Of a DNA stretch of 45,610 nucleotides, positions 14,815 through 45,610 are shown in pieces. The position numbers and the translations under genes are program-made. The DNA is from Haloterrigena salifodinae (GTDB lineage: Archaea > Halobacteriota > Halobacteria > Halobacteriales > Natrialbaceae), in contig NZ_RQWN01000010.1 of NCBI RefSeq assembly GCF_003977755.1, forward strand, positions 1 through 45,610, given 5' to 3'. The notes under the pieces are model-generated. The model was not told where the DNA came from. It did no database searches and saw nothing but the letters and a program-made list of their open reading frames with translations. How positions within the stretch are numbered: position 1 is the stretch's first letter; each line of letters starts with the position of its first letter.

Positions 14815-15132
14815 ATGGATACTGAGACCCAGGCGGTCGAACCAACCGAATTGAAAACGTGCGAGCGCTGCGAGGGAGAGTTGCCGAAGGGGACGCGCTG
14901 GAAGTGCCCTCACTGCGGGATGCGGCCGTGGCTTGATGCCGTCGTGATGGGCAGCGTCTGTGTGTCGGTCGGGTTGTTCCTGACCGTCACGGTTGTCCTC
15001 GCGATTGTCGGCGTTCCGTTGATGGTTCTCGGAGGGCTAATCGTCTTGCTCGCACCGTTGATGCGGCCACACCGCTCCGATCTCATGTCGGGGCAAGAGA
15101 GAACGATAACCGGCGACGTCGTCGAGAACTAA
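14815..15132 (+). CDS. Zinc-ribbon membrane protein, plus-strand insertion in the tail operon
   Basis: 105 aa from the ATG at 14815. The frame is open upstream, but this ATG sits at the typical spacing from an AT-rich promoter and at the natural start of the domain. A C-x2-C...C-x2-C zinc ribbon (CERCEG, CPHCGM) is followed by two membrane helices (about 45-90). It is encoded opposite to all surrounding tail genes and has its own promoter-like region, as expected of a moron gene expressed outside the late operon. Its stop codon overlaps that of the convergent 15129-15335 gene. Function may be host-envelope modification or exclusion (inference). Confidence 0.75.
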   Translation: MDTETQAVEPTELKTCERCEGELPKGTRWKCPHCGMRPWLDAVVMGSVCVSVGLFLTVTVVLAIVGVPLMVLGGLIVLLAPLMRPHRSDLMSGQERTITGDVVEN

Positions 15133-15708: not shown

Positions 15709-16568
15709 CTAGTTGTTCTGGTTGGCTTGCTCGGCCCGCTCACGCTTGGCGGCGGCCTTCGAGCGCACGTACTGCCGGATCGCATAGCGCTCTTTCGGCT
15801 CCGTATCCCGACCGAACTCGATCGGCGTTTTCCCGAGCCCTTCGACGACGACCTCCATCCAGGCGACGCCGTAGTAGTCGTCGCGCCCGACGAAGTCGTC
15901 GATCGCCTCACGTTCGTCGGGGGTTAGTTTCCCTCGCCCTCGTCGGTCGCCTCGAGGCGCTCGGCGACAACCTGCTGAGAGAGCGTCGATAGCCCCTCCT
16001 TGATGACGTTACCGTCGGCGTCGGTCTCGTCCTCGAGCTTGAACCGGCCCCAGCGCTGGGCGCCTCGGGAGAGATCATCGCCCTCGGGGACGGTCTCGTC
16101 GCCCATCACGGGGTCGGTACAGAGCTCGGTGATCGTCTCGAGCTGGTGATCGTAGAGCCCGACAACACTCTTGATCGACTCGGGATCGAGGTTCTCCTCG
16201 ATCGTCTCGTTGACTGCCTCGTCGTCGTCGGGATCAACGTCCTCGAACGTCTCGGGGTCCGACTCGGAGAGGATCTTCATCGTCTGCCGGCGGTGGATCA
16301 CGCCGGGCTGAGAGAACTCGAACTCACGGCCACGGAACGAGATCGTGTCGACGTCGCGGGTCGTCTCCTGAGTGAGCCAGTCCTCGATCGCCTGGCCGTC
16401 GGCAGCGCTCTCGAGTTGTTCTTGTTTCTGCTCTTGGCGCTCGTCTTCGGCAGCCTCGTGCTTTTGCTCGCCACGCTCGAGCTGCTCGTCGACGTTCTCG
16501 CCACCGAGGTCCTGGAGGACTTCCTCGCGATCCTCCGGCTCCGGCGGCTTGGTAGGTGCCTGGGACAT
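15709..16568 (-). CDS. Tail assembly chaperone GT fusion, made by -1 frameshift
   Basis: Predicted 286-aa fusion. Codons 1-214 are shared with protein G. At GGGAAAC (minus strand, complement of 15927-15933) the ribosome would slip -1 and continue for 72 codons to a TAG at 15709-15711 (sequence LTPDEREAIDDFVGRDDYYG and on, ending in AKRERAEQANQNN). The T segment has no start codon of its own near its beginning (the first in-frame Met is well inside). In phages the G/GT pair chaperones the tape measure during tail assembly, and GT recruits tail tube subunits. Position just before the tape measure fits exactly. Confidence 0.82.
15886..15933 (-). promoter_or_regulatory. Programmed -1 ribosomal frameshift signal
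   Basis: Reading the minus strand: heptamer G GGA AAC in the zero frame (complement of 15927-15933), followed immediately by the TAA stop, a 5-nt spacer TAACC, then a perfect 9-bp stem CCCGACGAA / TTCGTCGGG (complement of 15913-15921 and 15886-15894) with an 18-nt loop. Slippery site, spacer length and stem match the textbook -1 frameshift arrangement. After the slip the frame reads GGG AAA CTA ACC. Confidence 0.85.
15924..16568 (-). CDS. Tail assembly chaperone G
   Basis: 214 aa, the zero-frame product. The N-terminal 60 residues are charged and coiled-coil-like. The core is at about 70-200 (TISFRGREFEFSQPG, SIKSVVGLYDHQLETITELC, RWGRFKLEDETDADG). The protein terminates right after the slippery heptamer. 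Located between tail tube and tape measure genes, where tailed viruses encode this chaperone. No sequence-level family match is claimed; position and the frameshift carry the call. Confidence 0.82.
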   Translation of the reverse strand: MSQAPTKPPEPEDREEVLQDLGGENVDEQLERGEQKHEAAEDERQEQKQEQLESAADGQAIEDWLTQETTRDVDTISFRGREFEFSQPGVIHRRQTMKILSESDPETFEDVDPDDDEAVNETIEENLDPESIKSVVGLYDHQLETITELCTDPVMGDETVPEGDDLSRGAQRWGRFKLEDETDADGNVIKEGLSTLSQQVVAERLEATDEGEGN

Positions 16569-16574
16569 GAGTGA

Positions 16575-17078
16575 TCAGCTCCCGTCGTTGAGTGCTGCGG
16601 CGCCGTCGAACCAGTACTTGCCCTCGATGAACAGCGTGAACGTGAACTCGTAGGGCCCGTCGGACAGGCTCTCCTCACCAGTCTGGACGCGAACGTTCTC
16701 GCCGACGCGCTTGATCGCGGTCGTGTCGTCGGTTTCATCGGCGCTCGGCCAGATCACGAAGACGATCGCCTCTTGGCGGACGTTGTGGAGCTCGGCGCCG
16801 TCGTCGTCGACGAGGCCGAGCGTCTGGAGGTCGGCGTTCTCGGAATCCGGATAGATACCGAACTCGGCTTCGCGCGTGACGTGACCCTCCTCGGTGATCG
16901 TGTACTGCGATCCGTTGTACTGGAACTCGTCGCTGTCCGAGTCTTTCGAGATCGACGTGTCGGCGTAGACATGGTCGAGCCACTCGATCGTTTCCTCCGT
17001 GGTTCCGAGGTCGGTGACGACGCCGATGTCGACCCACCGGCCCTGAAAGTTCGCTTCGGTGTTGGGATCTGCGTTCAT
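16575..17078 (-). CDS. Major tail tube protein
   Basis: 167 aa, beta-rich and acidic, with the feel of siphovirus tail tube subunits (FQGRWVDIGVVTDLG, TREAEFGIYPDSEN, DGPYEFTFTLFIEGKYWFDG). It directly precedes the chaperone pair (6-bp gap) and follows the terminator gene region. A 70-bp gap with a 6-bp inverted repeat upstream could give it a separate promoter, useful for a highly expressed structural protein. Confidence 0.78.
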   Translation of the reverse strand: MNADPNTEANFQGRWVDIGVVTDLGTTEETIEWLDHVYADTSISKDSDSDEFQYNGSQYTITEEGHVTREAEFGIYPDSENADLQTLGLVDDDGAELHNVRQEAIVFVIWPSADETDDTTAIKRVGENVRVQTGEESLSDGPYEFTFTLFIEGKYWFDGAAALNDGS

Positions 17079-45518: not shown

Positions 45519-45610
45519 ACTACTACTACTACTAGAAAGTAGTAGTGTAGTGTGTACACAGCAGGTACACTCTTTGGGAAAACCTAAGTGCCTGTGTACA
45601 CACTGTGTAC
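45519..45610. repeat. Terminal direct repeat, right copy
   Basis: Exact second copy of bases 1-92. In the circular reading it follows the twin terminators at 45423-45489 and leads straight into the first gene, so the terminator pair and the operator region form one continuous intergenic segment. Confidence 0.97.

Follow-up and report, generated by a model that had tools for sequence, protein, structure and literature searches.

Programmed -1 frameshifting has been predicted for the tail genes of several haloviruses. Reviews list the G-T genes of HVTV-1, HCTV-1, HCTV-2 and HCTV-5 as cases of a -1 shift, and give the sites as G_GGA_AAC in HCTV-1, A_AAA_AAC in HCTV-2 and G_GGA_AAG in HCTV-5 (PMC5009743, PMC8211752). 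According to these reviews, the predictions for HVTV-1 and HCTV-1/2/5 were published in 2013. In 2021 Hardycor1 was predicted to shift on G_GGA_AAT and a Natronolimnobius provirus on G_GGA_AAG (PMC7911831). The halovirus shifts in these papers (PMC5009743, PMC8211752, PMC7911831) are predictions, and none is described there as experimentally tested. For the Archaea as a whole, a 2021 review counts one cellular gene for which programmed -1 frameshifting has been reported, and lists the halovirus tail genes as predictions (PMC8211752).

The G and T genes of HVTV-1, HCTV-1, HCTV-2 and HCTV-5 are joined coding sequences in GenBank, and we located their heptamers in the DNA. The same arrangement precedes the tape measure gene in these four viruses and in Hardycor1. 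The locus described here is a further example of this already predicted arrangement and not a new phenomenon. It lies in a stretch of 45,610 nt, called the window below. HCTV-1 (KC292029, genes 122/123) shares with the window the site G_GGA_AAC, the -1 shift, a short T (62 aa after the slip in HCTV-1) and a pair of small ORFs that separate the chaperone from the tape measure gene. Unlike in the window, where the distance is 0, its G stop lies 27 nt after the heptamer, and no significant protein similarity was found. In Hardycor1 (HrrHc1_110/115; PMC7911831) the heptamer G_GGA_AAT has the same place ahead of the tape measure gene, but the G stop follows 15 nt after it and the proteins are not detectably similar to those of the window. 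HVTV-1 and HCTV-5 (both G_GGA_AAG) and HCTV-2 (A_AAA_AAC) also have -1 joined tail assembly chaperones, and in HCTV-2 the stop directly follows the heptamer as in the window. These three differ in their heptamers and their longer T, and no protein similarity to them was detected.

Results

The window is one complete contig (C10) of a haloarchaeal genome and is identical to IMG/VR record IMGVR_UViG_2853968202_000001. A direct repeat of about 92 nt is found at both termini (1-92 and 45519-45610), and the contig is therefore probably a circular element. The related element in genome G003, unlike the window, is embedded in a 4.29-Mb contig. All tail genes of the window lie on the minus strand (Table 1).

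Table 1. Position of the G-T locus and neighbouring tail genes in the window
Feature	Position	Strand	Remarks
Gene preceding G, 167 aa, probable tail tube	16575..17078	-	role predicted from position; Humcor1 counterpart 30% identical, E 2e-16
G, putative tail assembly chaperone, 214 aa	15924..16568	-	3' end GAG GGA AAC TAA; relatives at 98% and 81%
Slippery heptamer GGGAAAC (G_GGA_AAC), 0 to -1 frame	15927..15933	-	kept in two relatives as GGGAAAT / GGGAAAC
TAA stop of G, immediately 3' of heptamer	15924..15926	-	displaced by 6 nt in G069
Inverted repeat, 9 bp, loop 18 nt; possible, unconserved stimulator	15886..15921	-
T, -1 frame extension, 72 codons + TAG	15709..15927	-	dN/dS 0.205
Tape measure protein, 864 aa	12115..14709	-	phrog_1533 E 1.6e-122; PF10145 E 3.6e-47

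When the slip site is read as GGG AAA CTA, 72 more codons follow up to the TAG ending at 15709, and the predicted GT fusion has a length of 286 aa. The -1 frame opens 75 nt upstream of the heptamer and overlaps G by 25 codons. Within 75 nt on either side of the heptamer the T frame holds no ATG, GTG or TTG; the first such codon stands 75 nt after the heptamer start. Downstream, a 5-nt spacer (TAACC) separates the heptamer from CCCGACGAA-N18-TTCGTCGGG, which forms a perfect 9-bp stem. A preliminary description of this DNA had reported G GGA AAC in the G frame with TAA directly after it, an open 72-codon -1 frame without a start near its beginning, and the spacer, stem and 18-nt loop, and all of these elements are present in the window (heptamer and stop at 15933-15924).

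The tape measure gene is certain from its profile matches, and the gene before G is probably the tail tube gene, as judged by its position and by synteny with Humcor1. The order probable tail tube, G, T and tape measure is that of Humcor1, where the G-T pair also carries an in-frame heptamer. About 1 kb separates T from the tape measure gene. This interval holds two small ORFs on the minus strand and, on the plus strand at 14815-15132, a zinc-ribbon gene. The latter encodes two CxxC motifs and hydrophobic helices, and it resembles a CxxC membrane protein found at the corresponding position in Humcor1 (39% over 33 residues, E 4e-6). Searches with Pfam and PHROGs profiles gave no match for G or T. 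BLAST found a distant match of G to the protein at the G position of HJTV-4 (25% identity, E 8e-4). A T profile had no similarity to HJTV-4 T. An AlphaFold model of G was too poor for a fold search (mean pLDDT 47.7). By position and architecture, G is a putative tail assembly chaperone.

Three close homologues of G were found, the window's own included; the other two are in G003 (98% identical) and in G069, Halostagnicola sp. A-GB9-2 (81% identical). The latter was the sole match of the genome contig search, and the viral contig search matched the window alone. The G protein had no match among phages, and the DNA from G to the tape measure none among plasmids. The heptamer is retained in 3/3 homologues. 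In G003 the site reads G_GGA_AAT TAA, and in G069 it reads G_GGA_AAC GAC GAC TAA, so that the stop has shifted by 6 nt and the heptamer has not moved. Here merely 9 nt of open -1 frame precede the heptamer and the G stop follows it at 6 nt, which confines the frame switch in G069 to about 20 nt. Purifying selection acts on T in the -1 frame, with a dN/dS of 0.205 overall compared to 0.17 for G, and the 23 T codons ahead of the first ATG give 0.21. The preliminary description had proposed to align relatives and ask whether heptamer, stop and stem covary, and it had named relatives lacking the heptamer as evidence against a frameshift. Neither of the two close homologues is of this kind, as G003 has GGGAAAT and G069 GGGAAAC; what did not stay together with the heptamer were the stop, which has moved in G069, and the stem, which is lost there.

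The frequency of such heptamers by chance was estimated from ten 20-kb stretches of host contig C1, with 119 long genes and 47,195 codon sites. In-frame X_XXY_YYZ occurs in these genes at 38 sites (0.081% of codons), with an A/T-type Y at 9 (0.019%) and as G_GGA_AAN at 3 (0.0064%). The 25-codon overlap would then hold 0.005 A/T-type and 0.0016 G_GGA_AAN sites by chance. With the residues E-G-N fixed, codon usage alone yields the heptamer in 12% of cases, and hence the argument rests on its position and conservation and not on codon choice. A GGGCCCG heptamer in a neck-region gene was rejected as a chance occurrence, its -1 frame being the next gene.

The preliminary description had counted the stem among the elements of a complete module. 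This has to be revised, because the stem does not persist in the 81% relative and most other halovirus sites have none. It might be that the 9-bp stem is a genuine stimulator recently gained in this virus, an addition to the frameshift reading and not an alternative to it, and we regard this as possible but less likely than not. Few sites have a perfect stem of at least 9 bp placed 3-9 nt downstream (0.33% of coding positions in the host, 0.07% of positions in the window genes), and the stem is identical in G003. In G069 three outer pairs are broken, and 6/9 positions still pair, one of them through a C-G to G-C swap. Against this, the matching stem weakens from -12.4 kcal/mol in the window to -2.8 in G069, and the 60-nt downstream fold is about as stable as its composition would lead one to expect (z -0.6). 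In folds of 45-60 nt the pair probabilities of the window stem are close to 1, and in folds of 80-100 nt close to 0, another fold winning at 80 nt or more, although a translating ribosome may see short RNA stretches. Unusually stable 40-nt downstream folds were found only in the window, G003 and G369 among 17 halovirus sites, and an Rfam search around the slip site gave no match. The stem is best described as an optional, unconserved and unproven stimulator.

A census extended the comparison to 20 loci that were retrieved by the similarity of their tape measure. An A/T-type in-frame heptamer is found in the G-T pair before the tape measure in 12/20 loci, a count that includes the two close relatives of the window and thus overstates the independent cases. 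Other heptamers elsewhere in the same 20 loci are of the G/C type, except for one GGGTTTG in L051. Humcor1, HJTV-4 and their relatives have U_UUU_UU(C/G) sites, retained in 10/11 viral contigs found with the Humcor1/HJTV-4 G proteins; in this type (L056:3426, L055:853, L076-L081, L083-L086) TTTTTTG or TTTTTTC lies 69-78 nt before the G stop and the T frame has 69-75 aa. In the eleventh contig, L082 (3001-3600), which has a distant Humcor1-type G at 49% identity, GAT TTT ACA replaces the heptamer and the T frame is still open; a one-tRNA slip at U_UUU is possible there. G_GGU_UUU sites are found in G369 and G239. GGGTTTT occurs in G-T pairs before the tape measure in two other haloarchaeal loci, at L046:5645 and in L053 (reverse complement 5785), with T parts 35% identical to each other. 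For Hardycor1 G no relatives were found in viral contigs. The U_UUU_UU(C/G) and G_GGU_UUU types are apparently unreported before: no report was found in the literature searched, the original 2013 papers being outside that search.

Discussion

We consider it very probable (about 0.9), from sequence comparison, that G and T are two parts of one tail assembly chaperone gene, joined by a -1 ribosomal slip on G_GGA_AAC to give GT. This reading follows from the conserved site, the conserved -1 frame, the lack of a start for T and the synteny with halovirus tail genes, and it agrees with the preliminary description, which had proposed a G/GT frameshift for this halovirus. In the mechanism that we infer, the majority of ribosomes would read G through to its TAA, and a minority, at a rate that is likewise a prediction, would slip one base back, with tRNA-Gly re-pairing from GGA to GGG and tRNA-Asn from AAC to AAA. 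The slipped ribosomes would continue into T and produce the GT fusion. By analogy with gpG/gpGT of lambda, where the heptamer is GGGAAAG, the tape measure protein would be coated by G, and the tail-tube protein would be brought in by the T part of GT; G and GT would both leave before tail maturation. Lambda shares with the window the gene order and a -1 heptamer near the end of G (PMC5009743). The window G, however, has no profile match to any phage chaperone family, and the chaperone role proposed here is one of analogy.

T might instead be a separate small gene, either started at its own ATG 75 nt downstream of the heptamer, with a product of about 48 aa, or translated by re-initiation after the G stop. 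All three relatives have this in-frame ATG, and the Humcor1 GenBank record annotates the equivalent downstream fragment as a CDS of its own. However, the codons between slip site and ATG are also under purifying selection, which speaks against T having its own start. There is no start codon close to the G stop, and the heptamer would be left unexplained. We therefore regard a separate T gene as very improbable. The Humcor1 annotation also bears on the claim of the preliminary description that gene callers miss T, which is borne out: HJTV-4 T is unannotated and Humcor1 T is annotated merely as a 34-aa fragment.

Two further explanations concern the frame break itself. The shift to -1 could be made by RNA polymerase slippage, and the frame alone cannot distinguish this from slippage of the ribosome. 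Yet GGGAAAC contains runs of three at most, too short for polymerase slippage, and the runs of six T at the U-type sites of other haloviruses are short as well. We regard polymerase slippage as hardly credible. Still less credible is a sequencing error or a decayed gene in which G and T were formerly one ORF. Nothing beyond the break itself points in this direction, and the same break with the heptamer occurs at the same place in three separately sequenced genomes, with both halves under purifying selection. The comparison with the relatives thus largely disproves this explanation.

The preliminary description had inferred from this locus that archaeal ribosomes slip at a bacterial-type heptamer. 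The idea is not new, as such shifts had already been predicted for Hardycor1 in 2021 and, as far as the reviews report the earlier work, for HVTV-1 and HCTV-1/2/5 in 2013. The window virus is a compact and clean test case, and its two close relatives alter the stop position or the third A-site base, which is useful for reporter design. Haloviruses appear to use varied -1 heptamers (G_GGA_AAN, A_AAA_AAC, U_UUU_UU(C/G) and G_GGU_UUU), mostly without a stem. We suggest tentatively, and with slightly less than even confidence, that archaeal ribosomes need little RNA structure to shift on them. To judge from the census, many natural slip sites for archaeal ribosomes can be found in haloviruses.
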